From the NCBI GenBank assembly GCA_947034885.2, contig OX344755.2:4032501-4096500 (forward strand): a stretch of 64,000 nucleotides of DNA. The letters run 5' to 3'. The notes beneath the pieces are model-generated. The model was not told the origin of the DNA, searched no databases, and saw only the letters and a list, made by a program, of their open reading frames with translations. Position 1 is the first letter of the stretch; each line of letters starts with the position of its first letter. Positions 25,150 to 59,540 of this stretch are shown here, piece after piece. Made by a program: the position numbers and the translations under genes. The stretch is from Thuidium tamariscinum (taxonomy: Eukaryota > Streptophyta > Bryopsida > Hypnales > Thuidiaceae).

Positions 25150-25345
25150 CATGGTTATCATACCGGGCGGACGTCCGGTTCGCCCGTCCGTCCGTCCGGG
25201 ACGTCCGGTAGAGCTCTTGCCCATCCGGTAGAGTCAACACATAGTTGACTTTTTGATAATGGAAAAATAGGCCACGTGGCTGCCATGTGGATTCCAGAAC
25301 ATGTAGGGCGGGGACGCGATCGTCAGGGCGCAGACGGGATTTGGG
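25150..25345 (+). repeat. Left terminal region (type-1 end) of the outer hAT
   Basis: CATGGTTATCAT is followed by a run of CGGACGTCCGG, CGCCCGTCCGTC and CGGGACGTCCGG words. Next come GTCAACACATAGTTGACTTT and CACGTGGCTGCCATGTGGAT. Two GC motifs in the GGGCGGGGAC/CAGGGCGCAGAC orientation follow. The right end of the inner element (46230-46355, reverse strand) shows the same order, including GTCAACACATAGCTGACTTT. This end type is therefore shared between two elements. Confidence 0.85.
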
Positions 25346-25439
25346 ACCACCTTAAAATTAATTAATATGCTTCTACATATTTCCTTTTTATATTCCATAT
25401 TCCCACTTTCCTAGTCACTCCAACACTTTATATTTTTTT

Positions 25440-27420
25440 TAATGTTAGATCATATCACTCTAATTAGTCTAATACCCAAACCATTTTCATATCCAAATTA
25501 CTCCACCATTCCATTTTTTTTAGGTGTGAAATTACATCACTCTAATATCCAAACCATTTTCATATCCAAATCACTACACCATTTTATATTTTTAGGAGGT
25601 GTTAAATTACCTCACTATAACATCCAAACCATTTCCATATCCAAATCACTCCACCATTCCATATATTTTTTGGGTGTTAGATCATATCACTCTAACACCT
25701 AAGCCATTTCTATATTCCAAAGCACTCCACCATCCCTTATTTCTTTTAATGTTAGATCATATTACTCCTAAAATGAATTGGTACGCTTTTCAAAAGCTTG
25801 GGTCACTTTACCTCCCCTTTTGGACATTGACTTTTGAAGCACACTTCCATTCCAAGTCTCTGCGATTATTTTTATTGGCGGAATCATTCCCTTTCCTATT
25901 TCTTCGCATCATTACCAAAACTCTTCGATTTTAATTCAATGCCATTTGTCTAGTGTAGAATGATTTCTTTTCCCTATTTTATTTCATGTGATTACCAAAA
26001 TTGTTCCATTCCAACCAAAGGCCATTTATTTTTGGTTGATCATTAGCAAAACTCTTTCATCCCAACTCAATTCCATTTATTTTTTGTGGCATCCCAACTC
26101 TATCCCAACTCTATCCCAACTCAATGGTAATTTGTGTTGGTTGTTAGATGAAATCACTTTGACTCCTTATTTTTTGTGGACTTATCCCTCTTTCATTTTG
26201 TTTGCTTTTATCAACAACATTTTGTTAACATAAAGCTTAAACGGATTTTCAAAACCCAACAACATTTTATTTCCCTCCTTATTTTTGTTTATCATTCATA
26301 TCACTTTAACATCCAAACCATTCCAAGTTTTTTTTAATGTTAGATCACATCACTGTAGCACCCAAACCATTCCCATATCCCTAGTCACTTTTACCATTCC
26401 AAAATTTTTTAAAGTGTTAAATCATTTCACTCTAACACCCAAACAACTTTAATTTATTATTCCATCATTTCCTTCCAATTTCTTTTGCATCATAAGCAAA
26501 ACTCTCCCATCCCAAGTCAATGCCATTTGTTTTTTGTTAAATCATTCCCTTTTCTATTTTTCTCACCTCATTAATTAACAAAGCTTTTCTATTTTTTTCC
26601 TTGAATCCTAAAACTCTTTCATTCCAAATCATTGTCATTTTTTTGGATGAATCATTCCCTTTCCCTTTTTTTTTGGCTTCATTCCTAGAACTCTCCCATC
26701 TGAACTGAATGCCATTTCGTATTTGTTCCATCATTTCGTTTCCTATGTTTTTTATTAATTAGCGAAGCCCTTCTTATCCCAACTTCATGCCATTCTTTTT
26801 GGTTTAGCTCATTCTCTCTCTTATTTTTTTGGCTTCATTCCTAAAACTCTCCCATCCCAACTCATAGTTTTTCTTTTAGTTTTTCTTGAATAATTCCATC
26901 TTCGATTGTGTTTTGCTTCATTAATTAACAAGACTCTCCCATCCTAATTCAAAGCCATTTTTTTGTAATTCCATCATTCCCTTTCCTTTTGGGGGGCCTC
27001 CTTTCTAAAACCCTTCCATCCCAATTGAATCATTTTCTGTTCCATATTTTCTTTCCCTATTTTTTTGGCTTCATTCCTACAATTCTCCCATTCCAACTCA
27101 TAGTTCTTGTTCTCTTTTTTGTTGAATCATTCCTTTTTCTTTTTTGTTTATCGTCATTAATTAGCAGGACTACTTTATTCCAACTCATAGTTTCTCTTTA
27201 TTTGTTGAATCATTCCCTTCCCTATTTTATTTTTGTAATATTTCCTAAAGTTCTTCCATCCCAAGTCAAAGCCATTATTTTTTTGTTCCATCTTTCCTTT
27301 TCCTTTTTTTGTTTTCTCTTCATTCCTAAAATTCTTCCATTCTACTTCAATGTCATTCATTTTTTTGTTGGATCATTCATTTTCCCTTCTTTGGGGGGGC
27401 TTCATTAACTCCTAAAACAT
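25440..27420. repeat. Degenerate T-rich array, left arm
   Basis: Many diverged units of about 60-75 bases combine CATCCCAACTCAATGCCATT, TTTTTTGGTTGAATCATTCC, CTTTCCTATTTTTTTGGCTT and CATTAATTAGCAAAACTC words. At 25440-25740 a related unit has TTAGATCATATCACTCTAA and AACACCCAAACCATT. The complementary form, read as AAAGGGAATGATTCAAC and TTGGGATGGAAGAGTTTTGC words, fills 35760-37320 and part of 32470-32930. The two arrays thus flank the cargo genes in inverted orientation. Long ORFs here are composition artefacts. Confidence 0.7.
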
Positions 27421-27721
27421 AGGCATAGTGAAAAAAATTAAGTGTATGCATTTTTATACCAAACTATTGCATCCATAGTTTTCATTTATGTTTTATCATC
27501 AATTCATAGAAGTCATAAAAAATGCCATGAGGAAAGAACAATGAAATGGCATATTAATATATTTTGGGATTTTGAGTATGGTACACAATTACACATCCGA
27601 TTTAATATATATTCAAGGTGTTTGGCAATTGCCAAGTAGGTACATAGGCTCCTCTATGAGGATGATTTTCTTCTATGCCTGAAATATATGCTAAACTACA
27701 AAAAGTATTAAAAACAAAATA

Positions 27722-29301
27722 CTATGTACGATAACAACAATCCGGCATCATCCAACAGTGGGGGGCCTTCTTCAATTTGTCTAGAACATCTGGCACTGAT
27801 GCCCTTTCACGCACGTCTTCTTTTACGAGGCTTCCCAATTTGATCCTGAAATTCTGATACTGCTCTGGATTCTTCGTTGTGAAGTATTTAGGGTCCCACT
27901 CTTCATTCCAAATTGCAGAAGCTATCCATCCCATTGCATATGCATCTGCTGCCATAGAATACAAATGCGTTTTTTGCATGGCCTCAATGGAGTTTGATGA
28001 ACCCTGCTCTCTGTATACATAAAACAATTCTGGGGCCACAAACCTTCGCTTTTTTTTCTCCTTCGCAAGGATCTCCATATTGGGATAGCCATACCTTGAT
28101 GGCTCCTTCTCCACAACTCGGCTAGAAAGTCCCCAATCACATATCCCTATGTACACCCTATTTTGTTCCCAATTATCAAAATGGAGCAAAACATTGGATG
28201 GAGATATGTCGTTGTGCATGTACTGCGCATCATGGCATTTCCCTACAATGACAAGTAATGACAATGCCAATTTCACTCGATTTCTCCGATACGTTGCAAC
28301 CCATGAAAGTTCCTCTTTCGTCAGCCCCGTAGAAATTTCACTCTCAATCTCATCCACATCCAGTGCTTCGCTCACTTTCGCATTGCATTTGGACAAGAAA
28401 GAAATTAGAGATCCTCCATTCCACCATAGTGTGTAGCCTTCCATTGTTTTAGGATGGAGGTACGCAATTCGAATGATGCTAGGATGATTCACTGGACACC
28501 CTCCTGCCTCATTGATGATTGCTTGGCGTTTCTCCTTTTCATTCTTAGTCTTCAAGCTCTTCCCAGCAAAAAATATCCAACTAGAAATGCTCTCAAGTTT
28601 CGTAAAGATCACCTTCCTCACGATCCCATACGACCCAATCGCAATCTATTTCGGCATGGGGATGACTTTCACGGAACTTTCTAGCCACTTGAATGTTCCA
28701 CTCACGCAATGAGCCGTTATCGCTTCTTCAATTGTCACTTTCCATGGTGCTTGCTTTTTTTACGTGAAGAAGAATATCGTTGAACAAACATTTGAATCTC
28801 CTTCAATTTTGTAACCATCTCTCTGTCCTCCGTGTCCCAGTCGCTACCATCTTCTTTCTTACCCGTGTGGTAACACCAATTACACACTATATTGGTTGTC
28901 AAGGCGACCACTTGTTTATTCAGCCACTCTTGGTGCAACCAATAATCTGAGAAGTTGTTGAATTCTTTTGATTCTTCAAACTTTGACTCCAGCTCCCTTC
29001 GCAGGTCCCTCGTCAGTTTGTGGTATCCTTCTTCGTTGAGCGCCACATACTCCCTTATCAACATTTTTGTACTTCGACGAGTGTAGAACACCACAGCTAT
29101 TGCTCTCCCTTCGACTATGAATTCATGTCCAGGTATTTGGGGATTTTGTGCTTTCTTGCATTTTTTCTGGCCTGATGAGGAAGGATTTGATGAACCTGAG
29201 GCCATCAACGTGTTTGTAGATGGAATTACCATCTCACCGACATCATCCAAGTCTACAAACATAGGACGTTTGTCCACCGACCCACTCCCTTTACCTGCCA
29301 T
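27722..29301 (-). pseudogene. Protein-kinase-like cargo gene, frameshifted
   Basis: An ATG at 29301 opens about 185 codons with a Ser/Lys-rich N-terminus and a novel region ending in SSSRKK. A T-run of seven at 28755-28761 (A-run in the gene) lies at the point where the frame must shift by one base. The new frame continues through a TAG at 28646-28648 into a kinase fold: glycine loop IAIGSYGIVRKV, a possible ATP lysine in FFAGKSLK, catalytic loop MHNDISPSNVLL (Asp and Asn kept), CDWGLS in place of DFG, RFVAPEL, and ADAYAMGW. The total is about 525 residues with no introns seen. The key Asp residues are present, so the ancestor may have been active. The HND and DWG variants are unusual. It shares a divergent promoter with the RING gene. 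The N-terminal region is not recognised. Confidence 0.8.
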
Positions 29302-29876
29302 AATGGGAAAAAAAAGTTCCAATGGGCCTCCATATCAATCCCGAAGCAAGACAGTTTCAAAAAATTTCAAAAAAACCAGGTCACATATGCAGGCCAAGCC
29401 CAACACCCACCAAACTCACTCGCACAGGCCGTGGGAACGAACTAGCATGTGAGGCATAGGGCGCGGACTTGGCAAAGGAATGAGGGTGGGGACTCGCTTT
29501 ATATAGTCCCCCCGCGCACGTCCCCGCCCCGTCCCCATCGCGTTCCCGCCCCAACACGTGGAGTCCCCGCCTTGATTCCACGCGTCCCCGCCCTGACAAT
29601 GGCGTCCGCGCCCGACAGCGATGGAGTCCCCGCCCTAACCCTAAAACCGCGCGCCGATAGCGATGGTGTCCCCGCCCTAACATTGGCGTCCGCGCCCCGA
29701 CAGCGATGGAGTCCCCGCCCTGACGTCCCCGGCTACCCCTATATAAACCCGTCCCCGCCTCATTTGTCCCCGCCCTGCATACTCTCAGCCTTCCACCTCT
29801 TCATTGAGTTGGTTGTGAGCGTCATGCGGGGTCTTTTTGATTGCCACGTGGGAGGTTTTCACATTTTTCCGTGAAA
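29302..29876. promoter_or_regulatory. Divergent promoter between kinase-like and RING genes
   Basis: Two exact TATATAAA boxes point outward: minus strand at 29505-29498, 197 bases before the kinase ATG, and plus strand at 29740-29747, 130 bases before the RING-gene ATG. Between them lie about ten GC-rich units such as GAGTCCCCGCCCTGAC, GCGTCCGCGCCCGACAG and GGTGTCCCCGCCCTAAC. The same motif family adjoins the transposase TATA box and fills the element ends. Confidence 0.7.
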
Positions 29877-32111
29877 ATGGCTACACCGACAAGACCAAGG
29901 AAGGAGGAACGAGACAAGACCCGACTACGATCAGGAACCAAACATCCTAAGCGGTTGCATGTTTTACGTAACCCCGCAAAGCTTGCATTCAAAGGGTGGG
30001 AAGACGTGCCTGACCCATGGACTTACGAAGATTGTGTCAATTACATCGAATGGTGCCACATTGACAAGGCCTTCCCAGAAGAGCGACACAACTATCACCG
30101 ACGCTTCTACAAGGCAAATTTAAAACATTGCATTGATGAGGAGTTTACAAATCGATGCATTGAAGTGTACCAGGCGTTGTATGATGTCCCTAACGTCAAA
30201 CACAATGAAGTGCATCTCGTCATTGCACGAGGGGTCCATGCGGAGCTGAAGTTGAACAAGAGAGTGGACTGGTCAACTTTGAGGACAATGGGGAACAAAG
30301 TCAACATTCCTACCCCAGCAAATGGATTCATTCCAAGGGGGGTAAAAAGGTACCTGCAAGGTGGACTAGGTAAAACAACTACACAAGTTGAAGCACCACC
30401 ATTACATGACACTGAGGACTCTGCTACAGATAACGACTCTGATGGATCTCATGTACCACATGCACTCAGCTATAGAACAAAACTACGGCTTAAAAAGAGG
30501 AGGGCTGAGCGTGCACCTGAAGAGGGTGTACAAGAAAATGTTGTGGAGGGACAGGTGCCAGCTATTGACGAATCAACAATAGGAATTGTTGATGTTACAA
30601 CTGCTGCAGATTGAATTCAGAGTTTGAGGACTGAAGTGGAAGAAAGGAATGCGGATCTGCATTCTTTGTATGAAGATGTTAATAAATTGAGGGATGAAAT
30701 CCAAGACAAGAACAATATTATAAGTGAACAACAACGTGAGATGGAGGCGCTGCGGCAGGCTCTTCAAGCAGCTACATTGGCCAATGATGGTCAAGATCCA
30801 CGAGGGGGAGCGCAAGGGCCTCCAATCAATTCTGAAATTCCAGTGCAACATGTTGAAGTTGGTGCAACACAGGGTACTCAAGATGATGCACTGTCATTTG
30901 GAGAATTACCCACAAATGCAGGTCAAGCAATGCCAATTGACCAGAGCACCCAATTGACGGACGCGCTTGCAAACAATTTGATATTGAAAAAACAATTGGA
31001 AGCGTTGATGGAGCAATATTACCAATGGAAGATGGCATGCGTCTTTACTGTTGACAGGACTCGGCAAATGGTGTCAGAATTCCAAAAAATCGACAACCCT
31101 CGTGGATGATTATTTCAACATGGATGAAATGGTGACCAAAGACATTGGTGGTGGACCAACAATCATCGATTGGTCTAAACACCATTGGATTTCAAGAATG
31201 AAGTTGGCTCTTCCCTCGACCAGAACGGCAATCCACTATTATTGTGGCCAAATCCTTCAAGCTTCGTGTATGATGGTACTACGTGTCCCATTTGTCTAAA
31301 TCCATTTGGCCCTGAAGGTGGAATGCACCTAGGCACATGTGAACACTTGTACCATCCATTCTGTTTGATTAGCTTGATGGTTGTTCGTCGACGGTGTTCC
31401 TTGTGCAAGGCTCCTTTCCATGAGCGCTTGTATGATTTGTTTGGATTAGTTCCGTACATGCCACCACATTGGGAATATAATACTGAAAATGCCCCTGATC
31501 ATTCTCAGAAGTGGGGAACAGACTTGGTGTGGAGTTGGAAATTGAAGGTCCATTCGTTGGAGAAACAAAACCTTTCTGCCGAATGGGGTTGGGAAAAAGA
31601 TCCAGCTCAAATAGTGGAGGTGTGTCACCACTTGATTCCAATGAAGGACAAGTTTAGCCAAGGATGACGGAATTTCTTCTATCAGTGCTTCAATGGGCAT
31701 TGGGACGAGGTTGGGCAGAACTTTCAATTTGGACCTCATCCTAGACAGTGGTTGTGGAGTAGGGATGGAGTTTGTATTACTAACGACGATGGGATTCGTA
31801 TGGTAGACGACATTGACATGCCTGACCCTACTGAACTAGCACAACTAGAGGAGTCAGAGTGGCGAGAAACCTTTCGACATGAAGGGATGGATTTCTTGCT
31901 TGAACAGCATAGCCCTCGAACTCGCCAATGTCTTGAGAGCCTCAAACAATCACAAATCATGAGGGTTGTATTGGAGGAAGATGGACCAGCGCGGAGAACT
32001 CGATCCGCAGTTCGTAGACTTCGTTTAGGCTCGGACGAAGACCTTTCCATCATTGCAGGGACACATAACAACGAGGCTAGCCCAAGTGGCAGTACAATGG
32101 ACATAGACTAA
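29877..32111 (+). pseudogene. Coiled-coil / RING-H2 cargo gene, broken
   Basis: An ATG at 29877 (context GTGAAAATGGC) opens a frame that continues past TGA 30612-30614 and through a one-base shift in an A-run near 31083. After a second small shift near 31180 and TGA 31665-31667 it ends at TAA 32109. The product of about 740 residues has a basic start, a region with WTYEDCVNYIEWCHIDKAF, an acidic linker, and a coiled coil (about 30620-30770, EVEERNADLHSLYEDVNKL). A RING-H2 finger follows at about 31286-31430: CPIC, LGTCEHLYHPFC, CSLCKAPF, giving C-x2-C, C-x-H-x2-H-x2-C and C-x2-C. The C-terminal part of about 220 residues ends in an acidic and basic tail. A RING-H2 finger suggests a ubiquitin ligase role, which is inference. 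No introns are seen. It is divergent from the kinase-like gene. Confidence 0.78.
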
Positions 32112-32975
32112 GTGAAGTTTCTACTATGTAGCTAGTGAACTTATGTTTTCATAGAAGACTTAGGGTCCTAGCTTAATATAGGCTTATAGAATTTTGATCT
32201 CGGCAATAGATATTGTTCGCTATATTAGATATTGGCACATGCATTTTTAGATGGTATCATGGTCATGGTAACCTCGTCATATACTTTTCCAACTATGTAT
32301 TCCATGACGCTTATGAAATATATATTATTTAGCCCAAAATCACTTCGTTTATTTTTTGCACATACTCATTTGAAACAACATCATACATATACAAAAATTA
32401 TATCATGAAATGAAATGTCATTGAATTGGAGTATTATACTATAATTCATTTCCATTTTTCCATGAATGAATAAAATTAGGGAAGGACAACAAATGCCATT
32501 ATATTGGAAAAAAACTCATTTCTAATGTTGCTAATGATAGAAAACAAGTAAATGGCATTCACTTGAGATACCACCAAAAAATAGAGGGCATTCTGGTGAG
32601 ATGGAACAATTTTGCTAATCAAGTCCCAAAAAAATAGGGGGGAATGATATACAATAAATAAAGGGCATTGGGATGGCATGGGATAATGCTGCAAAATTAG
32701 CCAAAAACAATTAGGGAGGGAATGATATCCACAAAAAATGGCATTCAATTGGGACAAAATAATCTTCCAAATCAATAAAATAAAACTATAAAGGGTTTAG
32801 GAAATAAATCGTCTTTTGTTGGGATGGAACATTTGGCTAATGAATTTCGAAGAATTAGGAAGGTAATGATCAAAGAAAAATGAATGGCATTCGGTATTTC
32901 GGTTGGAAAAAAGTTAGGAAGACAAGAGTAATGCCATTTACTTCTTGTATAACTGTGAGTCGCTCAAATTTTTGA
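32112..32975. other. Gene-free spacer with start of A-rich array
   Basis: 3' flank of the RING gene. From about 32470 it contains AAATGGCATTCAATTGGGA and AGGGAATGATATCC words, the complement of the 25440-27420 units. Confidence 0.45.
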
Positions 32976-35480
32976 TTTTTTGCAAATTGCCTTGTGTAGT
33001 GAGAATAGAGGCAATTTGTTAGGTCAAGTTTACACTTAGAAGGAATTAGAGGCTAATTGTCATTCAGATTCTAAAGGACATAGTATTCAAAGATATGAAG
33101 CAAGGCAAATTGACTTGGCAGTTTTCCCATGAACGGTTGATCTCCAGCATAGTCATATACTTAGTCGAATTGCCATTTTCATTTGTACAGCACTCTTGAT
33201 TTTCATAGCTAGACTATTTGACGTATTCTATGTACCACTGAATTTCTTCAATTCAATAAAATATTTACTTGTCTAATCGTCTTGCTAGCTGAGTACCTGC
33301 GATGGGGCCAGCTTTTACGGCAAATTGACTGATTGAAAGTATTACTTGTGTTTTTGTGGGTCCAGGGATTGGACTTTGTCTTTGTGTGTGTGTGTTTATG
33401 AGTTAAGCAAATTTGACAAAGAGCAAATTGCCTCTGAACTCAGTTGAAGAAATTCTTTTAATTGTGACTTGATTCAGTGTTTGTATGAGAGTGTGGGAAA
33501 GAGTTAAGCAAATTTGACAAAGAGCAAATTGCCTCTGAACTCTACTTTAAATTGTTACTTGTGCCGGAAAGAGTTAAGCAAATTTGACAATGAGCAAATT
33601 GCCTCTGAACTCTACTTTAAAAACTTTACTTGTGTATTACTTAAGATTAGAATTTGAATAGAATTACTTTGGTATGTTTAGAACAATTTGCTGTGTATAT
33701 AATTGAAATGCTGTGTGACTGTGATGATGTGTGAAGTGCTAAAACAAATTGTCTTTTTGTGATCTGTCTATTTGCCTTAGTTGCATTCAGTTTTTAAGGC
33801 ATTGAAAATTATTAAAAAGCCATAATGCAACTAATTGTCATTGTGTCCTATATGTGAGCAATTTGCCATTGAACTGAACGAATTGCCTATGTGTTCAGTG
33901 CTAAATTGTTGAAAATTACTAAGAACATATGATACAGCTAATTGTCTTGGTATGGCATGTATGTAAAATCAGCCATGGAGCTTTAGCAAATTGACATGGC
34001 CATTGTTCATGTTAATGTATGCATGTGATGTGTAAGTCAAATCGTCTATGTGTGATGGAGAAGTGCAATCAGATTATTCCACCATACCTACAGTCGAATT
34101 GTCTTAAAGTTTAATTGCAAAATCAAATTGTCAGAATTAGTGAAAACTTGAGTGAGATTTTTCAGCAATTTGCCTGAGTGAATAAATATAAACAGCCAAT
34201 TGCCCAGCATGAGTTGGTGTCACTACTAGAAAAGTCACCCCGAATGAACTGAACTATGTTGATTAGGACATCTTGATTCGGACACTTTTAACACAATTGT
34301 GTTAAAAGTGTCCGAATCAAGATGTCCTAATCAACATAGTTCAGTTCATTCGGGGTGACTTTTCTAGTAGTGTGTGGTTGGTGAAAAAGATGTGGCGAAT
34401 TGCTTTGAAGTCAAATCGATGCAAAATTAAAGAAATGGAGAAATTTTGGCAAATTGCCAAAATACAAAGTGGAACTTGAAAAGATAAAACTAAAGCGACT
34501 TGGCCGAATTGCAAATTGACATCAAACATCAACCAGGGAGTTTTACCTAAATGATATTAAAAGTTTTATCTTATGTCTAATTGCATTTGTTATGATAACA
34601 AATTGTCATAAAATTAAAGATGAATAAATGAATAATTAAATCATAAATTGTGACAAATTGCTATTGTGCATTGAAATTTTATAATAAAACTACTTGTGAA
34701 ATTGTTGTGAGTTTTGATTATAGAAAAATTCTATAATTAAAATTTAATTTAATTGCATTGATAAATTGCATTATCATAATTGTGAAAAATGTCAAACTTA
34801 TAGAAAATACAATTTGATAAATATGAAGATGGAATTAAATTAGAGTCTAATTGCTGAAATTGATAAAACAAATTAAATTAATTCTCAAAAGGAATTAATT
34901 ACATAATAATTATTCAAAAGATTAAATTCTTGATACATCTAATTGAAGAGAAACCATGGTCTTAGGTCCATAGGAAGTTACTATGACAAATTGCCTTATG
35001 ACAAATTGCCTTGGTGTTGATGATGAAGAAAAATGACAAATGGCTTTGAAGTGTGATGGTGGAACAATATGACAAATTGCCTTGTGATTTAGAAAATCAC
35101 CCATAAATTATTTTAATTAATATATTGAGGAACAAATTGCCATTGATATTATAAATTGTTCTAAGATAAAATTAAACTAACCAATTGATTTGAACATGTG
35201 CAGTGGCATGGAAATGAAGCCAATTGCATATACACTCATGCCTTGCATTTAATTAGGGACAAATTGCCTTAGGACTGGGACTGGTTTGATACTCATCTAA
35301 ATTGTGATTAGGCTAGTTAAATAGTGACGGAAGACAAATTGCTTAGTAAAAGAATTTCATGGTAATTAAGGAATTGGCCGAAGAAGAATATTATATATAT
35401 ATTATATAACTTGTTGCAATGATTAAGTCGGATAGTGCATGCAGGTGACAAATTGCTACATACCCTTGACAATTTGCTAT
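32976..35480. repeat. Array of dispersed AAATTGCC motifs
   Basis: The short word CAAATTGCC, or close forms (CAATTTGCC, GAATTGCC, TAATTGTC), occurs many tens of times over 2.5 kb in both spacing and context variants. A longer unit, AGTTAAGCAAATTTGACAAA followed by GAGCAAATTGCCTCTGAACT, is repeated at about 33400, 33501 and 33571. There is no ORF. It resembles a diverged minisatellite field. Confidence 0.6.
34221..34372. mobile_element. CACTA-type MITE, perfect 152-bp palindrome
   Basis: Begins CACTACTAGAAAAGTCACCC and ends in the exact complement. The two 76-base halves match at every position I checked. It is flanked by the 3-bp duplication TGT (34218-34220 and 34373-34375). It lies inside the giant hAT, so it inserted after that element formed, and recently by its lack of arm divergence. 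Confidence 0.95.
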
Positions 35481-35759
35481 TCCCTTTTAGAATACTAGTC
35501 CAGGACTAGGACAGCACTCATGTGTCCATAGCATTATTAATGGACTGATCAACGAAATTATTTCCTGGGAATAAGAGTGAAACCCCAAATTGCCCATTCA
35601 AATGTCTTTGTATGTGGAAATTAGCAGTATATTTCAATCCATTCTGAATTACATGTGACTTTAGTCACAATACGTTAGACTATTTGACCATTCCTCTAGA
35701 TTTGAACCCCTATACTATAGTCCTGGGTTTTGTGAAATTAACCAAAATCTAGACTACAA

Positions 35760-37549: not shown

Positions 37550-38160
37550 GTTCGGAGTGTTAGAAGACATAAGGAACGACATGTTCCACCACAACAAAGG
37601 GGACATGCTCTTCCACGAAGTTTCTTCCAAATCTTAGTCCATTGAGCTCTTTAATTTGGCATCTTGCTTTCATGGTCTTGTCGGAATGTAGAACAAGTTG
37701 TTCTTCCTAAAATTAAAGGTTCCCCCGCTCCAAGAAAAGGAAGGATTGAAGGATCTCATGCCCAAGCGCATTTCAAAGTCCTCCCTCCTGTGCTGTATGA
37801 CCATGTCCGTGCCCTGACGTCAAGTCCGCGCCCTGGAGTCCGCGCCTTGACATGAAGTCCGCGCCATATATTTGAATTGTCCGCCCTCAAGTCCGCGCCC
37901 TGCGTCCATGCCCTGACATAGCCAATGTCACGAAAACATTGGTGAGAGAAAGCTTTCTTGTCTCTCCATCACTATAAAGAATCTAAAAGAAGGCATGATT
38001 GAATTTAATGGTTCCTGGTTTCCATGAAAAGGAGGGACACAATCTTGCAAGAGCAATAAATAGGAGCAAGGAGGGATCCCATGCGGGAAGTCAACCTCAT
38101 TTGCAGTGCATGCACGTTTGCGCACCAAGAATGGTACGTGCTTGTGAGTGCTCCTAACTC
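37550..38160 (+). repeat. Duplicated GC-motif segment, copy A
   Basis: Positions 37550-37770 match about 52145-52360 (both contain TTGAGCTCTTTAA and TTGGCATCTTG-like sequence, then TAGAACAAG and ATGCCCAAG). Positions 37780-38135 match about 50035-50335 (GCATTTCAAAGTCCTCCCTC, AAGGCATGATTGAATTTAATG, GGAGCAAGGAGGGATCCCATG, GTGCATGCACGTT). About eight GTCCGCGCCCT motifs lie at 37803-37918. Confidence 0.75.
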
Positions 38161-38336: not shown

Positions 38337-38344
38337 AATCCTAC
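38337..38344. repeat. Left target-site duplication of the inner hAT
   Basis: AATCCTAC precedes the terminal CATGG at 38345 and is repeated exactly at 46356-46363. Confidence 0.93.
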
Positions 38345-40075: not shown

Positions 40076-40079
40076 TGGT

Positions 40080-42970: not shown

Positions 42971-42974
42971 GTCC

Positions 42975-46363: not shown

Positions 46364-46472
46364 TCTACTCTATTCTATCAATTAATTTTGCCTAAATCTA
46401 ATTCCAAGCATTTGGTAAAAAGAAACTTAATAGTAAAACAATGAGAATGAAAATCAAATGTGAGCGATTTAC

Positions 46473-46608: not shown

Positions 46609-49600
46609 CTGTTTTAAAATAAATTAAAGGTTATGTAGCGTGAATTTAATTGCGTAATTCTTTTAATTCCTGCATCCTCGGTAATTAGGAAATACGGCAA
46701 TTAAATTAGTCTACCTAGTTGATAAGGTTCTAGTCTAAATCAACGGAAATCTAATGGTTCACTTATTTGTTGTTGTTAGTTTTATTTTAATTCTAAATTG
46801 ATATTATAAAATTCCAATGAATTCTATTTGAATTAAATTTGGATGGAAAATTCCCTTCAAATCTTTTCAAATCCAATTAATTTTTGAATTGATTTTAATT
46901 CTAAAGAAATTGGTTGTCAATTTGTTTGTTTCCCTTTTGGCTTATTAAAATATTTTAATCAAATCTATCATCAAATCTTTTAAAATCTAATTGATTTTAA
47001 ATTTGCGTTAGTTTGCAAAGAAATTAGTTGTCAATTTGTTCTTTTCCCTTTTGGCTTATTAGGCCTAATAAAACAAAACTAACAAAATCCAAACTTCCTA
47101 AGAATCTAATTAATGACTAACTACCAAAGAATGTAGAACATTCCCAAAGAACGAGAATATTAGTAATAGTGATATTCCGAAGGAAACTAGTTTTTTATTC
47201 CCAAGGGTCAACCATCAAGAATAAGAATCTATTTCTATAGTGTTATTCCCCAAAAAATCAATTGTTTATTCGTAATTGGCTTCACGTGTCGAATTCCATC
47301 ACCTTAATCATCCTAACCACTTCTCCTTCTCTCTCATTCTTGCTTAGTATGTTTTGCAAGTTTTTTGTGGAGAGAGGTGGCTATGGAGTTTAGAATGTGA
47401 AGAAGGTTATGAAATTTTTGTGACTTCCAAATGTTGGATTTTTGTTCAAAAAGCAAGGGTGTGGCGCCAACTGCCAACCATAAGTGTGAATTTATATCCA
47501 ACTTTTGAGAGTTCCAAACTTACTTGAGTCCCTGGACTGAACCCGACTCCCTTCCAGTGACCTGGACTCCCCTCCCAACGACCTGGACTCCCTTCCAGCG
47601 CCCGACTCCCTACCGGCCCGCCTCCGTTACCCGGCCGCCTGGGTGGCTGTCCGCCTGGGGGCGCTGGTCTGCCTTTGGGGTGGTCTGGTGTATTGGTCCG
47701 CCCTTTTTATGTTAAAATTTTGAATTTTGGGATTCTCCACTATGTGAAATTTTGGGAATCCTCTCCAATTTTAAAACTAATAATTTGGGTTTTTTACTTT
47801 GGAATGGTTTAATAATGGAACCCGAGAATTTTGGTTCTAATTAATTTCCTTCCAAGGGCTTACGTGGTTTTTAACAGTTGAGAGTGAAATTCTCCCAATG
47901 TTTCAGTAAGTGTTACGGGTGCAAAGCTCCGCCGTGTCTTGATAATTGTAGTATTTTGAGAGTTTTATTCACAAAAGGAGGTACACATGACAATGTTTAA
48001 ACCGGACTTTCACTTTAAACTCTTAAAATTTCCTAGTATTTTGGAATTTTGCAACGAAAGGAGGTACACATGACAGTGTTTAAACTGAACTTTGGCGCTC
48101 AATACTCAAAAATCAAAATCTCAGTGAACTAGTAGCAGAGAAAGTGTTGAGGCCTTGCCTCTGGAATGAAGTGACAAATAAATAAAAGTTGAAGGGGCCC
48201 TAAGCCTTCAAATTTGAAAAAAAACTAAACACAAACAAGACTTGGCCAAAATCTTGGTCCAAGTAGTGCCCCAACCGTGTCGGTGGCACAATAGCAGAAG
48301 AACAAAGTGTCGGTGCGAGAAATAAGGGTACTGGCAACCTCGAGGGGGGCCCTTATATACCCGTGGCCGGGCCCCTCTCGATAATTGCCGGTGAAAACAC
48401 TTTGTTACTTCTTATCCTAAACTACCCTAATGTAATTTCAAAATATTAGTTGTTTAATGGTGGAAATTTCTAAAAACATCCCCATTTGGCAAAAGAAATC
48501 TTGGCCAAATCAAATCCAAGATCTTAATCCAAAATATTTTGGAATTAACCCTAATTTACTTAGATATTTTGCAAATTAACCAAAAGTCATTTGGGAAATT
48601 GTCTTTCTTTAGCCCAAAGATGGATTTTTACGCAAGAAAGAGATCTTGACCAAATCCAATCTTTGATTTTCCAAGAGATATTTCCAAAATCACTTCTAAT
48701 TAACCGCAATTAACGATTAAAAAGTCAAACTAAGAGCTGACCCTCTCTATCTTTTAGGGAACAACTCGAAACGGAAAACCATCTGCGCCATTGTCTTCAG
48801 AAGACCCCAATTAGCCTATGGGACCCCTTGCCCCTTACTCCTAGGCCATTTGCATGCCCAAATTGGAATTACGGTAACTCCAATTAAAAGTCAAAAATCT
48901 AACTTTTAGGATTTGCGCATTTTGATGAATCTGTTAGGCCAGGGTTGTTAGGAATGTCCGTGAGAGTAAGGAATGACTCCTTATTTGCGACAATCGGACA
49001 TCATTCGCTCCTGATACGCCGGTCAACCCGCTGCCAACTTGTAACTTCTAGTGAAATTCGATGTCGATGCCGGTTTTGGTAGTTGGGAATGTCGGAATGT
49101 CTTCAAACTTGACCGAGCGCTTATTAAGCACACAAAAACCTATCCTAATTTTTAGTGAGATTTTACCGCATCATACGTAATTTCTATGATTTTACGAACA
49201 TTTCTATGTGCGGTTGACTTCCATCGAGTCAACGTGGAATTTCGGAAAAATCCGAAATAAATTGGGTAACATCTAGGGCACTCCTAGATTATTGGTGTAA
49301 GTCCCACGCCACCTTGCACCTTTCTAATTTTAGTAATTTGGAATTACTTTGCCCAATTGGACAATTTAATTCCCAATGCCTGGGAATCTTGGACAATTGT
49401 TTGATTCTTGTTCGCTCCTAGCATGCTCCTACCCTTGGAACACCTTTCTGTAGTCTTCAATCTCCAATCCTCCATCTTTTATCTCGTGAAGTTCGAATTC
49501 TCCAAATCCATTGTAGTGGTTTTACCTTTAAATCCAATTTGTTTCAAAATTGAACTTAAGCCCTGGTAACTCTCCCACGCTCGTAGTAGACTCTTCTAGC

Positions 49601-49910
49601 TTAGTCAGTATGTCATGTGCATCCTCAAAAGGTTGACTTTGCACAGAGACTTACTAGGACTGACTAACTCTCGATTCCTATTTCTCTCGGAATTACTAAA
49701 TCTTTACATAAACTTGCTTTGGAGACTTAGAATGATTCGAATTTCTAGGATTAGGAATTTTCCACCTTCTAAGTTGGTTTTCCACCATTTTGGCATAGAC
49801 TGACACCAAAACTCCCTCAACACTCTTTTTATGTCTTTTTCTTGAATATTTTGACTAATTTTCGCTATTTAATCGCGAAAAATGGACCCAGAGTCCTGAG
49901 TGCCATCTCG
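46609..49910. other. Gene-poor interior of the outer hAT
   Basis: AT-rich to 47350. Positions 47520-47720 hold a GC-rich run with three CCTGGACTCCC units that produces a Pro/Trp-rich ORF I do not believe. Positions 47970-48100 contain a tandem repeat of AAAGGAGGTACACATGACA, about 84 bases apart. Near 48330-48400 there is a small GC-rich stretch with a short self-complementary part (GAGGGGGGCCC/GGGCCCCTC). Positions 48750-49450 are mixed in composition with no clear ORF. Confidence 0.35.
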
Positions 49911-50500
49911 AGGGCTCACAGTGCCCTGGAGTCCGCGCCCTGAAGTCCGCGCCCTCACCTGATGTCCACGCCCTGAGTAGCGCCAACGTAGTGAAGTTCA
50001 AGCTTCCAACTCCTTCGCTGCCCTGGTTCTCATGCCCAATCGCATTTCAAAGTCCTCCCTCTTGTGCTGTATGCCCTGGCGTCCGCGCCCTCACTTCAAG
50101 TCCGCGCCCTGACACAGCCAATGTAACGAAAACATTGGTGAGAGAAAGCTTTCTTGTCTCTCCATCACCACAAGCAATCTAAAGGAAGGCATGACTGAAT
50201 TTAATGGTTCCCGGTTTTCATGAAAAGGAGGGACACCATCTTCCAAGAGCAATAAATAGGAGCAAGGAGGGATCCCATGCGGGAGGTCAACCTCCTTTTC
50301 AGTGCATGCACGTTCGCGCACCAAGAATGGTCCGCACCCTGGAGTCTGCGCCTTGTGCAAGACTCCACGCCCTGCGCTGGAGTCCGCGCCTTGTGCTGGA
50401 GTCCCCGCCTTGAAGTCCGCGCCCTCACCTGACGTCCCCGCCCTGAGTAGCGCCAACGTAGTGAAGTTCAAGCGTCCAACTCCTTGGCTTCTTGGGTTCA
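49911..50500 (+). repeat. Duplicated GC-motif segment, copy B
   Basis: Contains about fourteen GTCCGCGCCCT-type motifs. Positions 49920-50015 are repeated at about 50390-50490 (TAGCGCCAACGTAGTGAAGT, TCAAGCNTCCAACTCCTT). Positions 50035-50335 match 37780-38135. The ORFs on both strands arise from the GC motif. Confidence 0.75.
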
Positions 50501-52150: not shown

Positions 52151-53037
52151 GTTAGGAGAACTAAGGAATGACATCTTGCAACACAAGAAACGGGACATGC
52201 ACTTCCATAAATACCTTCCAAATCTTAGGCCGTTGAGCTCTTTAAGGTGGCATCTTGTTGTCATGGTCTTCTCTGAATTTAGAACAAGCTGTAATTGGGT
52301 ACATTAATGGTTCTCCCGCTTCAACAAAAGGTGAATTCAAAGATCTCATGCCCAAGTGCACTGCAAATAGTGTTGGACGAAGACGTCCGCGCCCTGGCGT
52401 CCCCGCCCTGATGTCGCATCCGCGCCTTCATCTCAGTCCCCGCCTACAAGTCCGCGCCCTGACATGAAGTCCGCACCCTCCAGTCCTTCATTGTGAAGTT
52501 CCTCAGCCTTTGGCAATTGCCAAACCATGCGACCGCCTCCTGCATCCGCGCCCTATCCCCCCATTCAACACAAGCATTAATGGAACAAAGCGGTCGTGTC
52601 TTTCGAGACATATGAGGAATGTAAAAGAAGGTCGTCGCTGCAATTAATGGTTCATGAAAAGAAGGGATACCATCTTCTAAGAGCGGAAAAGAGGAAAAAA
52701 GTGGGATACCATGTTCAAGAAAATGAAGAAGGCCATGCGCTTCAACCACTTCTTGGCTCTGGTACACTCTGTGGAGTCCGTGCCTTGACTTCCCGTCCCC
52801 GCCCTCAAGTCCACGCCCTGTCTTCCCGTCCCTGCCCAGACCGCTAGGGATTCAGGTGTGCATTTTGAACGTTGTCAAAGTTCACCGCCCTCAAGTCCGC
52901 GCCTTGACTTCCCGTCCCCGCCCTCAAGTCCGCGCCCTGACGGCAGGGATTCAGGTGTGCATAGACTTTAGGACTGAAGACGTCCGCGCCCTGTTGACAA
53001 GGACAACGATGAAGTCCGCGCCCCTACCTTCCCCAAG
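52150..53037 (+). promoter_or_regulatory. GC-motif-rich upstream region of the transposase gene
   Basis: Positions 52145-52360 duplicate 37550-37770. From 52384 to 53025 there are about twenty motifs such as GTCCGCGCCCTGAC, GTCCCCGCCCTCAAG and GTCCGCGCCTTGACTTCCC, some in a tandem unit repeated at about 52790-52850 and 52885-52940. The TATA box follows immediately. This is the same arrangement as in the divergent promoter at 29302-29876, so common control of the three genes is likely. Confidence 0.6.
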
Positions 53038-53298: not shown

Positions 53299-56200
53299 AT
53301 GGCAAGTCAGAGGAAGCAGACCAAGGAATGGGAACCGTGGCTGAACTTCACGGAGAATGGGACTAAAGTGACTTGTGTTTTCTATATTGGGACCTTCAGT
53401 TACAAACGTGAGCGTGCTTTTGCACATTTCGGATATGGCTCGAAATCGGAGAGGTCAATTTGTCGAAGTATGCCTTGTGAAGTGCGACATAGGTTTGCCA
53501 ATTGTACAGGTTTTGTCCCACTACGAATGGATGCCGGGAATATGTGTGAAGGAGAACCAATTCCAAGTGGGCCGACTAGAGCAACTCCGCTTGCAAGTTC
53601 AAGCGAAGCCACTGAAAATGAGGTGACGGGTGGGGTCACTGGTGGGAGAGCGGAAGAACGGGCAAACGTTTCTGAAGGAAATGAAATTCTACAAACGTCC
53701 AATAGTCTTGCAGGATCAAATTCTACGAGATCGGGATCATTACGTCAGCAACGCATGGCGGACGCATTCAACATTGCAAAGAGGAAGGAGTTGGATGAGA
53801 AGTGGGCAAGTTTTTTCTATGAAGCAAATGTGCCATTTAATGTGGCAAGGCATCCAGCCTTCATTGAAGCTGTGAGGGCAACCTCAGTGGCGAGGTTTGA
53901 ATATAGTCCACCTTCTTACCATCAGTTCAGGACTAATTTAATTGAACCGAGGAGGTTGCAAATCGAGAAGAAGATTGAAGAGAAGGTTGGTTTTGCTGTC
54001 AAGCACTACGGGGTGACGATATGCACCGATGGTTGGGATGATGTCAATCGGAGGCCCCTCATGAATGTGATGATGTCATACCCCGCAGGTGATGTATTTT
54101 TGGGGTCAATTGACACTACCTCACAAAAGAAAACCATGCACTACATAGCAGACCAAATGAAAGTTTACATTGAGAAGGTGAATTCCAAATATGTGACACA
54201 AGTTTGCACAGATAATGCAGCAAACATGCTTGGGGCATTGAGAGACATTACTCTAACCTATCCGCACATTTTTGCGCAAGGCTGCATGGCACATGCATTG
54301 GATTTGATGTTGGAAGATTGGGCCAAGATCCAGGAATTTTCCGATTTAATTGACAGGGCAAAAAGATTGTGCCAATACATTCGAAACCATCATGCGACCA
54401 TGTCGGGTTTTCGTTAGTTGAGTCCAAACCTACAACTCGTAGTGCCTAGCGAAACTTGCTTTGCTTGTAATTTCCTCATGTTACAGCGACTGGTGAAACT
54501 CAGAGGAGTCTTGGAGTGGTTGAATAACCACCCCCGTGTTATAAATTACTATGATACCCTACGAAACGAACAGAATGGACCACAGGCAGCTACCGCTTCA
54601 CGTAATGTCAGAAGAACCATTGAAGATGTGGCCTTTTGGCAACGATGTGTGAATTACGTGTACATGACTGAAGACGTATTGAAGGCTTTGCGTGTGTTTG
54701 ATGGACGAGAACCAGCCATGGGTCGGGCGTGGCTCGTGATGCACAACTTGCGAGGACACGTGTATTCTTTGAGAGAACCACCTTTTAGCTTACAAGATGA
54801 CATAGCAGTCACTTTGGAGAGATCTTTCAATGAAAGATGGGACATGGTTTTTGAAGATATCCACTACGTCGCAGCCCTTTTGAATCCATACCTCTTGGAT
54901 AACGTGGCGCTCAGGGTAGACGAAACTGCGCTACGTGCATTGTACAGAGTCATCCACAAAATGGCAGATGTAGTGGGTGTCACTTTTGATGATGTGTTGG
55001 CGGAATTAACTGAATTTGAGGAGGGTAGTGGACCGTACAGTGCAGCTGAGACACCCAACATCCGTGTGACACAAATGCTTCCCCACCAATGGTGGCATAG
55101 GGTTGGAGATCGGGCTCTTTCAAAAATTGCTGTGCGTATTCTATCCCTCACGTGTTCGGCCAGCTCTTGTGAAAGGAATTGGAGTATGTATTCCTTTGTT
55201 CACAATAAGGTCCGAAATCGATTAGCCCCCGCGAAGGCAGAGTCATTGGTATATATTTATACCAATAGCCGTGTACTTCAGGAAAGACCAGGAGCCGATC
55301 CAGTTCGTTGGTATGATGCAAATATGTACTCGGAGGATTCCGATCCAGATGCCCTTGGTCCGATCCCTTTGAATGAACGCAATCGGGAATTTGACGCAAT
55401 GCAAGCAGAGGAAGAAGAAGAGGTTGGTGTGGAAGCCAATGAAGCACCTCAAGAGTATCCAGTGAACCCAGATCTTTGGAGGCGAGGTGCTGATCACCTC
55501 GAGGAAGCGAGAAACTACTATGGAGATGCTGACGATGGAGAGGAAGAACCCGTTGGTGGTCGTTGGGGTCCTTGGGTACCCAATCCTCGTCGCAGTCCTT
55601 CACCTCCTCTTCCTCAAAATGAAGGGGTCGCAAAAGTCCAAGCTTTGTCATCTTCTTCAGAGGCCGCCAATCCAAATGACGATAACGTAGATGATGGTAT
55701 CTCCCATAACAACAACGACGATGATGACGACCTCCCTCCAGGAAATGGCGGCGGAAATGGAAATGGAAGCGGTAATGGAAGTGGCGGTGAAAATGAAAAT
55801 GGCGGCGGAAATGGAAATGGTGGTGGAAATGGAATTGGTGGCGGAAACATGGGGAGGACTGCAAATCCAAATTGTGGAGGATCTTCTCACAATCAAGATG
55901 GCAATACAGGGCCTACAAGAATGGGGGCATCAGTTCATAGCAATAGAGTTGTCGAATGACACCATGACAGAAACGTTAGAAATGCAAGAATGGCACGCCC
56001 TATTGCAAGGAATCAATCGGCAAGTAATGTGAGAAGGCGTTTTGATCCAGAGCATGTAGACTACAATGATGTTTTTGCATTTATTGACGCACCAGAAGAC
56101 CTTGCCCGTGAACCCACTCCAGTTGTGAGCCATCCAGTTGGTTTTGACCGAACTACCCAAGCGCCACATTCCCTAGACCCATCTTCACCAGCAACTTCCA

Positions 56201-56904
56201 ATGCCATCCAAAGACCTTTTGAAGAAGGGTTAGGCTCTATGAGAAATGTTGATATGACTCCTCAAAACATTTCTCGTGGTACTGTTGGTGGTAGACCACC
56301 TACGGCACCTCGGCCCTCCATTCATCATGAAGTGGGTCAATATCAACAAGGTCGTGGAAGGATGGGAGGCCGTAGAAGGACGGGAGGTTGTGGAAGGACT
56401 GGAGGCCGAGGAGGGATTGGAGGCCGTGGAGGAACAGAAGGTCCACATATTAGAGAAGCATCATCGTCAAGGCCTACTCATCGTCCACTCCTTGGAATAG
56501 GGGCAAGAGACTCAAATAGGGTGGTAGAACCGTTCTTGAATACATACGTACCAAGACATAGTAGGTCAACCCCGGCATTTGTTGTTCCTCGAGTTTCAAG
56601 TGGGCCCACTATAAATTCTGATGCAGAAGACCCCAACGCACTGCGACATAAGAGGTTCAAGCGCAAACGTAGTCAAGGTCAAACTATTGTAGAGCTTCGA
56701 AATGAAAACTCAGAGATTGAAGGAAATTGGACCATAGATAGTGGTGAAGCAGAAGATGAATATGACAGCAACGAAGATGCCAATGACGAGGATGATCCAA
56801 ACTGCGATGAGGCCCTATAGGATGATGATGTTGTTGTTCGAGATGCTAATGTAGTGGATCCAAGTGCCCAAGAAGTTCGTAGGTCGAGTCGTTTCAATAA
56901 CTGA
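53299..56904 (+). pseudogene. hAT transposase (DUF659 type) with long C-terminal tail
   Basis: One frame runs from ATG 53299 to TGA 56902 (1,201 codons), broken only by TAG 54415 (codon 373), TGA 55957 (codon 887) and TAG 56818 (codon 1174). Codons 8-65 resemble a BED zinc finger, but the usual second Cys is absent (VTCVFYIGTFSYK). DUF659 covers about 220-340, with CTDGWDD (242) and CTDNAAN (303) supplying the acidic residues expected of the hAT catalytic core, then QGCMAHALDLMLEDW. The hAT dimerisation region is at about 605-657 (SASSCERNWSMYSFVHNKVR). The tail after about 690 is acidic and proline-rich, then Asn/Gly-rich (about 790-850), then Arg/Gly-rich (about 1014-1050), ending acidic and basic. 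Most hAT transposases end soon after the dimerisation region, so this tail is exceptional. It acts in the nucleus on the element ends. Confidence 0.9.
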
Positions 56905-57288
56905 GTTGCACCAATGGTAGATCTCGTGTCTTTAAGAGTTGAAGAGAATTGTAGCAATTAAAAGAAAGATGGATGAGAAGCCAAAGGAATGTCTTAGATA
57001 ACCGATGAGAAAGTGGGCATATTTTGGAAGTATAGATTCATTGTATTGTTATTGTACTTTGCAATGCATGAATTTTATAAATACTTTTGGTTATCATAAA
57101 GATTGAAGCATACTAATATGTCTATAATGTTTTTGTATTTGACATTTTGACGTGCATGTTGGAAACATTGGTGAGTGCAATCATGTAATATATTTTGTAG
57201 GCTAATTCTATTTAATATGAGAGGCACTTTGACTTCAATGATGAATTGGGTTTGATAGTTGAATTTAATTTCAAGGTCTGTGATGTGG
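56905..57288. other. 3' flank of the transposase gene
   Basis: AT-rich and probably the 3' untranslated region and terminator zone. No unambiguous polyadenylation signal is assigned. Confidence 0.4.
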
Positions 57289-58728
57289 CTATTTTATTTT
57301 GTACAATGGGGTACCAATAAAAAAAAGTCTTTTTTGAATTCGCAATGAGAAATTTTTTGGTATGGCCAACTTTGAAAGCCTCCCGAGAGCTCAAAAAGTA
57401 GTATTTAACCACGAAATTTTTACCACAGCATAACCTTGAATTTAATTATATGTATGACAAATTTCAAGGCCAAAAGATTTAGGGAAGAAAATTTATTCAA
57501 AATCTACCAAGATGGGTAGTAGTGAGAAACATTTCACTACTTTCAACTTTGACACCTTCCTAAGGAGTAAGGATTGAGTCTTGGTTCTTTTGCCGTGAAA
57601 TTTTTGTCATAGAATAATCTCTATGTTCTTAATATGTATAAAAAATTTCAAGGTAAAAAAAGTTTTGGTGAAGAAGATATTTGAAATCTCTCAACAGGTG
57701 TAGTTCTCTGAAACTTTTGAGAATGACCAATTTTGACACCCTACCAAGGGCTAAAAAATTGGTTTCTTACCATGAATTTTTTTTGGTGAAGTCATCTCTA
57801 TATTCATAATATATGCTACAAGTTTCAAGTTAAAATGAATTACCAAAAAAAAGATATACAAAATCTGACAAGATGTGTGGTTATGAGAAATATTTTACTA
57901 TTGCCAACTTTGACACCCTCCCAAGGGCTGAAAATTTGTCTATTTAACATGGAATTATTTGAATAAAATCAACTTTATGTTGATGTTTCAAATTTCAAGT
58001 TCAAAACACATACCCCAAAAAAGATATTCAAAATCTGTCAACATGTGTAGTTGTGAGGTTGAGTTTCTACATTCGTGACAAACTTGGCTCCACAAAATAA
58101 TACTATACTAAGGACTCAAGAACTTAATCTCATAACCACACATGTTGTGAGATTTTGTATATCTTTTTTTTGGTAATTCATTTTAACTTGAAATTTGTAG
58201 CATATATTATGAACATAGAGATAAATGCAGCCAAAAAGAATTCATGGTAAGAAACCAATTTTTTAGCCCTTGGTAGGGTGTCAAAATTGGTAATTCTTAA
58301 AAGTTTCAGAGAACTACACCTGTTGAGAGATTTCAAATATCTTCTTCACCAAAACTTTTTTTACCTTGAAATTTTTTATACATATTAAGAACATAGAGAT
58401 TATTCCATGACAAAAATTTCACAGCAAAAGAACCAAGACTCAATCCTTACTCTTTAGGAAGGTGTCAAAGTTGAAAGTAGTGAAATGTTTCTCACCACTA
58501 CCCATCTTGATAGATTTTGAATAACTTTTCTTTCCTGAATCTTTTGGCCTTGAAATTTGTCATACATATAATTAACTTCAAGGTTATGCTGTGGTAAAAA
58601 TTTCGTGGTTAAATACTACTTTTTGAGCTCTCGGGAGGCTTTCAAAGTTGGCCATACCAAAAAAATTCTCACTGCGAATTCGAAAAAGACTTTTTTTAAT
58701 TGGTACCCCATTGTACAAAATAAAATAA
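57289..58728. repeat. Large inverted repeat 3' of the transposase
   Basis: The arm at 57289-57887 is matched in reverse by 58129-58728, about 600 bp each, around a 241-bp spacer. Matching blocks include TTTTGTACAATGGGGTACCA, GGCCAACTTTGAAAGCCTCC, GGAGTAAGGATTGAGTCTTG-like and ACACCCTACCAAGGGCTAAA. The arms also contain internal repeats of a TTGACACCCTNCCAAGGGCT unit every 150-190 bases. It is non-coding. A transcript crossing it would fold into a long hairpin. Confidence 0.88.
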
Positions 58729-59067
58729 CCAATTGAAAATTTTGCATGCTAAGCCCCATTACTACTTTTACTTTCCAAGGTAATTTCAAATAATTTAGAT
58801 TGATTTTTCTATTTGTACTCATTTATATTCATTTTTTGCATCAAAAATTATAACAATTAGAAAATTGGTACAAAACAAATTGTAATTTCTCATGGTGATA
58901 TAGAATTAAGAGTTTGAATTAGAATAAATTTCAGATTGTTGTTTGAACACTACCCGTACTCAAAAGGCTAAAATTAGTTCACATAAGAAGTTTGACCACT
59001 TCACAATTGACAAAGTCCTTAAGGGGTTACAGACCTTCTATCCTATAGAACCCATAACTCACTACCC
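58729..59067. other. Spacer inside the right end
   Basis: AT-rich and non-coding; nothing recognised. Confidence 0.4.
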
Positions 59068-59410
59068 ATCCGCGCCCTGACCCTTATGTTGAGGTCCGCG
59101 CCCTAACACTGACGGTGAAGTCCGCGCCCTACCTATACACGTCCGCGCCCTGACGTACACGCTGAAGTCCGCGCCCTACTTGTTCGAGTCCGCGCCCTGA
59201 CGCTAACGATGAAGTCCGCGCCCTACCTGTACGCATCCGCGCCCTGACGCACACGCTGAGGTCTGCGCCCTACTTGTTCGAGTCCGCGCCCTGACGCTGA
59301 CGGTGAAGTCCGCGCCCTACCTGTACGCGTCCGCGCCTTGACGGTGACACGATGAAGTCCGCGCCCTACCTGTACGAGTCTGCGCCCTGACGGAGACGTC
59401 CGCGCCCTGG
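59068..59410 (+). repeat. Right subterminal array of 15 GC motifs
   Basis: Fifteen copies of RTCCGCGCCCT are spaced about 23-24 bases apart. Two versions alternate: one continuing GACG (CCCTGACG) and one preceded by TGAAG and continuing ACC/ACTT (CCCTACCTGTACG). The higher-order unit is therefore about 47-54 bases. Three copies show C-to-T changes (TCTGCGCCC, CGCCTTGAC). All are in one orientation, opposite to the motifs at the left ends. Confidence 0.92.
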
Positions 59411-59540
59411 ATCTCGCTTTCTAAGTTGACGTGTCAACCCAAAAAAATCCCACTACTTTGAAAAATGGAGCCGTCCAGTCCGTCCGGACCATCCGTCCGG
59501 GACGTCCGGTGACCCTAACTCGTCCGTTATGACAACCATG
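59411..59540 (-). repeat. Right terminal region (type-2 end) of the outer hAT
   Basis: On the reverse strand: CATGGTTGTCATAACGGACG, AGTTAGGGTCACCGGACG, TCCCGGACGG, then CAAAGTAGTGGGATTTTT and GGGTTGACACGTCAAC. It matches the left end of the nested element (38345-38480). Confidence 0.88.

Follow-up and report, generated by a model that had tools for sequence, protein, structure and literature searches.

Giant hAT transposons very probably equipped with kinase and RING-H2 genes of their own in the genome of Thuidium tamariscinum

Elements of the hAT superfamily are generally small, a few kb long, and carry a single gene. In a stretch of 64,000 nucleotides from Thuidium tamariscinum (GenBank assembly GCA_947034885.2, contig OX344755.2, positions 4,032,501 to 4,096,500, forward strand; hereafter the window), a hAT transposase gene shares one much longer unit with a protein kinase gene and a RING-H2 gene, which raises the question whether the three form a single transposon and whether the two additional genes belong to it or merely travel in it. 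We consider it very probable that this unit represents a clade of giant, multi-gene, autonomous-type hAT elements comprising at least three subfamilies, in which kinase and RING-H2 genes owned by the element regularly occur beside the transposase. Sizes in the clade are about 17-21 kb for subfamily A, to which the window element belongs, 29.4 kb for B and 36.8 kb for C. The main features of the window copy are the following.

25150..59540, forward strand: whole hAT element of subfamily A, 34,391 bp with the nested insert included
25142..25149, unstranded: left target-site duplication CTTACAAC, an exact match to 59541-59548
59541..59548, unstranded: right target-site duplication CTTACAAC, the second exact copy of the 8 bp
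25150..25210, forward strand: left terminal inverted repeat region, CATGGTTATCATACC... (pattern with 128 genome matches, control 0)
59470..59540, reverse strand: right terminal inverted repeat region, CATGGTTGTCATAACGG... (pattern with 145 genome matches, control 0)
27722..29334, reverse strand: kinase gene, open reading frames (ORFs) 28735-29334 and 27722-28645, interrupted in this copy
29877..about 32111, forward strand: RING gene with basic N-terminal domain, coiled-coil-like part, RING-H2 and C-terminal domain, interrupted in this copy
31281..31409, forward strand: RING-H2 domain (PF13639, 8.5e-6; alignment)
53299..56904, forward strand: hAT transposase gene with DUF659, hAT dimerisation domain and long low-complexity C-terminal tail, interrupted in this copy
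38345..46355, reverse strand: non-autonomous element nested in the outer one, with ends of the same kind and its own exact duplication AATCCTAC

A first-pass annotation of the window had proposed a bounded hAT unit at 25150-59540, and its CATGG-type terminal repeats, enclosed by the exact 8-bp duplication, bear this out. The end patterns of subfamily A were searched with up to three mismatches, the reversed patterns serving as control (0 and 0 matches). An 8-bp duplication was present in the four elements read (the window copy, an A copy on contig C2, a B copy on C3 and a C copy on C2) and in the nested copy, which lies in the opposite orientation to the outer element. The sister A copy (contig C2, 36232243-36251543; 19,301 bp; duplication GTCTACTA) shows the same layout without the nested copy, at about 92-95% identity to the window element over long stretches and 85% at the left end; its joined flanks match window positions 20596-21043 across the junction (72%). 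Removal of the nested copy and its duplication from the window element leaves 26,372 bp, so that the length of about 26 kb given by the annotation stands for this copy but not for the subfamily, since the sister copy measures 19.3 kb and 14 of 26 gene-bearing end pairs (see below) span 17.0-21.2 kb, while B and C reach 29-37 kb.

The three long genes assigned to the unit were recognized by Pfam in a scan covering ten ORFs of the window, although all of them are broken in this copy by stops or frame changes. The transposase matches PF04937 (DUF659, 4.6e-34) and PF05699 (hAT dimerisation, 8.8e-9), and its open frames reach up to 1278 amino acids in other A copies; an N-terminal BED zinc finger had no Pfam match, and a C-x2-C...H...C-like stretch was noticed by eye in the sister A copy. 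The kinase (PF00069, 1.8e-10 in the window) takes in the upstream ORF 28735-29334, as indicated by a single 537-amino-acid frame in another copy, and frames of 537 and 564 amino acids are open elsewhere in the genome. PF00069 scored above its cut-off for the kinases of A, B and C, and an alignment shows the kinase motifs AGK, HND, DWG/DFG and APE retained in all three; PDB searches gave weak matches only. The protein has an N-terminal part of its own and would be an active kinase. The RING domain stayed under the Pfam cut-off in A, B and C alike (PF13639 with 26.4 bits against 27.3 in the window), while its PDB match was RING finger protein 24 (9.4e-6), and the C3H2C3 zinc ligands are intact in B, C and the window copy. 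A 773-amino-acid RING frame is open in sister A copies, and the basic N-terminal block, which lacks a Pfam match, is strongly conserved. The protein is probably an E3 ubiquitin ligase.

The genome of the host comprises 363 Mb in 19 contigs and includes a gene for a radial-spoke protein, consistent in a land plant with flagellate sperm. It was searched with each protein, and the best-scored matches were retained: 110 of 630 candidates for the N-terminal half of the transposase, 150 of 734 for RING and 129 of 616 for the kinase. Forty-six transposase matches, the window included, showed 86-100% identity and, with two of them halving one copy, represent at least 45 A copies; the other 64 were of B/C type (39-42%). 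RING matches divided into 48 at 63% identity or more and 102 lower, kinase matches into 52 of A and 77 of B/C type. When the first 100 listed left and the first 100 listed right A ends were paired, 69 pairs resulted, 26 of them enclosing A genes. The annotation had expected all three genes between matching termini at several loci, with frames intact in some, and this is what the pairs revealed: 25 of the 26 enclose transposase, RING and kinase, and open frames occur in some copies. The remaining pair (C5:713308), with RING and kinase listed, also contains a hAT dimerisation-domain match. Gene-bearing A pairs extend from 17.0 to 55.0 kb, the large ones presumably containing nested inserts. Gene order around the transposase was equally regular. 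Within 60 kb upstream, a RING gene in the same orientation is present for 40 of the 45 A transposases (31 of these at 7.2-9.4 kb) and for 57 of the 64 others, i.e., for 97 of 109 listed transposases, where random placement gave 1.3 on average and 8 at most; both partners are found within 60 kb for 36/45 A and 43/64 B/C-type transposases.

The same gene set recurs in other arrangements. Taking the transposase as forward and last, the order is reversed kinase then forward RING in A, forward RING then reversed kinase in B, and forward RING then forward kinase in C; the transposases of B and C were assigned to hAT by protein similarity only. We read the ends and the RING and kinase genes of one B copy (contig C3, 42520779-42550206; 29,428 bp) and one C copy (contig C2, 123396-160149; 36,754 bp), bordered by the perfect 8-bp duplications GTTCCGGG and GTAATGAA, respectively, and both accessory frames are open in each. 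In silico excision of the C element with one duplication restored a single open frame of 624 amino acids over the junction, as for a clean insertion; its left-flank part matches CACTA tnp2 (2.2e-58), and its right-flank piece, searched alone, gave no match. The B/C end patterns had 299 and 409 genome matches (control 0), and pairing of 100 listed matches per end yielded 50 pairs, 27 gene-bearing (one element entering twice through a doubled left end) and 23 gene-free. All three genes were listed in 17 of the 27. The C RING gene is present 41 times (91-100% identity), and 12 of these copies are stop-free, which suggests that subfamily C moved recently.

Both accessory genes are under strong purifying selection between B and C: the ratio of nonsynonymous to synonymous substitution rates (dN/dS) was 0.216 for RING (70.9% identity, dS 0.88, 820 codons) and 0.139 for the kinase (72.2% identity, dS 1.25, 526 codons), whereas synonymous sites were saturated in comparisons of A with B or C. 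Because both genes are constrained in this way, RING and kinase seem to be conserved components of a three-gene hAT rather than an accidental cargo. Divergence was concordant among the genes, with B-C identities of 71% for RING and 72% for the kinase, A-B identities of 41% and 35%, and about 40% for the transposase relative to A. Within A, RING and transposase are inherited together, since their distances correlate over 21 elements (r 0.82; 0/2000 permutations), and the correlation rises to 0.91 once the mean divergence per copy is removed (0/2000 permutations). "Cargo", the word used by the annotation for the kinase and RING genes, is therefore the wrong one, the gene set being constant over diverged subfamilies and, from B to C, under purifying selection.

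Several observations weigh against a regular three-gene unit. As listed, RING or kinase was missing within 60 kb for 9/45 A and 21/64 B/C-type transposases; the other accessory gene lay within 20 kb for 39/48 RINGs and 42/52 kinases of A, and for 59/102 RINGs and 59/77 kinases of B/C; and only one or two of the genes were listed in 10 of the 27 gene-bearing B/C pairs. These partner counts rest on the best-scored matches, so that an unlisted partner speaks neither for nor against. Selection was seen only between B and C, where RING and kinase were compared, A copies being near-neutral: among 30 sequences each, omega was 0.95 at single and 0.64 at shared sites for RING (shared against single, p 0.052), and 0.84 and 0.99, respectively, for the transposase, as expected of copies decaying after insertion. 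The aligned A sister copy has lost one zinc ligand of RING, the first H being replaced by Y. Finally, among the matches listed, no kinase lies near the transposase of a further subfamily, D, which is 45% identical to that of A and has 86 scored copies (96% identity or more), many of them with frames of 1061 amino acids. Of three D-type RING matches, two lie downstream of a D transposase in the same orientation, 11-15 kb away (C4:5799076-5812236 and C4:21619268-21636048), and D may represent yet another gene order, the fourth.

The level at which selection acts is not evident from a comparison of subfamilies alone, and the two genes might be true cargo in the manner of Starships, selected through a benefit to the host and not through transposition. 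The cargo of Starships is variable, whereas the pair is constant in A, B and C; the copies are many per genome and often decaying, and both observations fit selection at the level of the element. We regard a host benefit as improbable. Less probable again is that a host kinase gene and a host RING gene were taken up by an ancestral element and have since been carried without any function for it. Capture of gene fragments by plant DNA transposons is known from Pack-MULEs (PMC6431247), and copies of the present element do decay after insertion; passive carriage is nonetheless hard to reconcile with dN/dS values of 0.14-0.22 between B and C, with an identical gene pair retained in three gene orders, and with stop-free kinase and RING frames of 529-557 and 829-854 amino acids in many copies.

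That unrelated nested transposons make the genes only seem one unit could be imagined for the window copy, which holds a nested element and two other extra stretches. The sister A element, however, with a duplication of its own, keeps the layout without the nested copy, B and C sizes are uniform among the gene-bearing listed pairs (29.3-29.6 kb in 12/16 and 36.6-37.0 kb in 6/11), and the 13-base end pattern occurs inside the window element, nested ends aside, only at 57086 with 2 mismatches; the pairing of ends in all three subfamilies likewise disfavours a composite, which we find scarcely credible. Equally remote is an origin from a DNA virus that gained a hAT transposase: large DNA viruses have kinase and RING genes and a weak match links the kinase of the window to VRK kinases (E 0.001), but IMG/VR, searched with short-peptide seeds that reach close relatives only, yielded no relatives of transposase, kinase or RING, and the ten window ORFs scanned with Pfam contained no protein-primed polymerase, integrase, capsid or packaging domain.

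A three-gene hAT clade whose kinase and RING genes belong to the element suggests a transposon that comes with its own means of influencing the host cell. A possible target lies in the CpG-rich motif arrays of the non-coding parts, located in the window copy as follows.

25304..25335, reverse strand: two copies of motif GTCCSCGCCYTG, left subterminal (motif search)
29457..29777, unstranded: array of 9 copies in the divergent kinase/RING promoter (same place in the sister A copy)
37805..37902, forward strand: array of 4 copies (motif search)
49931..50445, forward strand: array of 11 copies (motif search)
52385..52993, forward strand: array of 10 copies in the transposase promoter (also in the sister A copy)
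59068..59409, forward strand: right subterminal array of 14 copies (motif search)

With one mismatch allowed, GTCCSCGCCYTG had 69 matches in the outer and nested elements and none in the remaining 29.6 kb of the window. The sister A copy has 53 matches, every one outside the three genes; its arrays occupy the two ends, the promoters of kinase/RING and of the transposase, and a stretch at 9.2-10.1 kb. Over the genome, the exact 12-mer GTCCGCGCCCTG occurs 1,530 times (reversed control 5); of 100 listed places, all on contig C1, 98 are no more than 15 kb from a listed A end (random expectation 1.6), and none of the 100 falls in a listed gene stretch. B and C copies bear another CpG-rich unit, GGCGACCGCG, at the left end before RING and at the right end. 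Between two A copies the arrays diverge by 4.9-8.7% and other parts by 2.6-4.8%, and a comparison of CpG conservation between these two copies showed no clear protection of the arrays. The arrays resemble the targets of the VANDAL anti-silencing system, and those at the ends may equally be binding sites of the transposase.

In the mechanism that we propose, the transposase would cut and paste the unit through its ends and subterminal arrays, and the RING protein, as an E3 ligase, and the kinase would act in trans on proteins of the host or on the transposase, most likely relieving the silencing of the CpG-rich arrays or licensing their transcription and transposition. An anti-silencing role of the two proteins, suggested by analogy, is tentative, and we lean slightly against it. 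On the broader proposal, an undescribed clade of giant plant hAT elements in which a kinase and a RING ligase would manipulate silencing or cell state via CpG-rich arrays that evolve fast and serve both as ends and as promoters, our judgement is evenly balanced. If true, cut-and-paste transposons can evolve accessory gene sets and yet stay numerous in a small plant genome; the clade would offer a testable case of a transposon acting on host ubiquitin and phosphorylation pathways, as well as a second, independent candidate beside VANDALs for anti-silencing based on motif arrays.

No description of a kinase- and RING-bearing hAT was found in the literature, as covered by titles and abstract openings, with preprints outside this coverage and few subscription papers within it. 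The elements agree with the hAT superfamily of the DUF659 type in 8-bp duplications, short CA(G/T)GG... terminal repeats, DUF659 and hAT dimerisation domains and subterminal repeat arrays, and differ from it in their 17-37 kb and two further conserved genes. VANDAL elements have a Mutator-type transposase. Neither a Mutator transposase nor 9-bp duplications were found here, the window element having a hAT transposase and 8-bp duplications. VANDALs of Arabidopsis (VANA/VANB/VANC) are, as here, multi-gene plant DNA transposons with non-coding motif arrays that are enriched in their own copies and family-specific, and the anti-silencing protein VANC binds short motifs of such tandem arrays (PMC5735166); their accessory proteins are unrelated to the present ones. 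ToxhAT, a fungal hAT of 14 kb with ToxA found in three fungal species, is likewise a large hAT moving a non-transposase gene, in that case a single effector, whereas here a kinase and RING pair is shared by diverged subfamilies of one plant genome (PMC12506042). Accessory enzymes also occur in fungal DNA transposons with TET/JBP genes, hAT7 among them, and in the DNA transposon IS3EU, whose enzyme is an alpha-kinase, but TET/JBP genes pass between transposon lineages while the present pair diverges in step with the transposase, and hAT7 makes 7-bp duplications (PMC12730594). Starships and other giant eukaryotic transposons share the giant size and extra genes (PMC6431247, PMC12289983); the Starship transposase is a DUF3435 captain, unlike the hAT transposase here, and no DUF3435 tyrosine recombinase was matched by Pfam among the ten window ORFs scanned. 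Maverick/Polinton elements differ in their polymerase, integrase and capsid genes, absent from the same ORFs. PMC6431247, a review of giant transposons, does not use the term hAT in its main text.

The window copy itself is a decayed, inflated member of subfamily A, with extra DNA beyond the nested element, as follows from the absence of the first two stretches below from the sister A copy.

32960..35758, unstranded: 2.8 kb missing from the sister A copy (alignment)
46364..49930, with 38142-38344, unstranded: further sequence missing from the sister A copy, about 3.8 kb together
57286..58731, unstranded: long inverted repeat with arms of about 600 bp, downstream of the transposase, seen in both A copies read

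Terminal repeats were sought at the extra stretches 32960-35758 and 38142-38344/46364-49930, and none was clear. A perfect 152-bp palindrome (34221-34372) lies within the 2.8-kb stretch. The inverted repeat, at about 36249166-36250612 of contig C2 in the sister A copy, was predicted to fold at -985 and -1014 kcal/mol in the two copies, with 90% of bases paired, and might give rise to double-stranded RNA that opposes or favours the element. Repeats of about 75 bp, degenerate and with strongly skewed strand composition, lie on either side of the kinase and RING pair (25409-27391 and 32573-37119), inverted relative to each other, each set downstream of its gene.

Forty-three of the 69 A end pairs had no listed match of any of the three genes inside. 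They fall into size classes of about 3.9, 7 and 10 kb, larger than usual miniature inverted-repeat transposable elements (MITEs), with few between these or up to 13 kb, two of about 0.3 kb and one of 63 kb that is probably a chance pair. Twenty-one of the 23 gene-free B/C pairs measure 6.6-12.3 kb, also larger than usual MITEs, and the remaining two 31.7 and 45.5 kb. A hAT-like miniature element of 359 bp (C3:42550524-42550882), with the duplication GTTGAGTA, adjoins the B copy.

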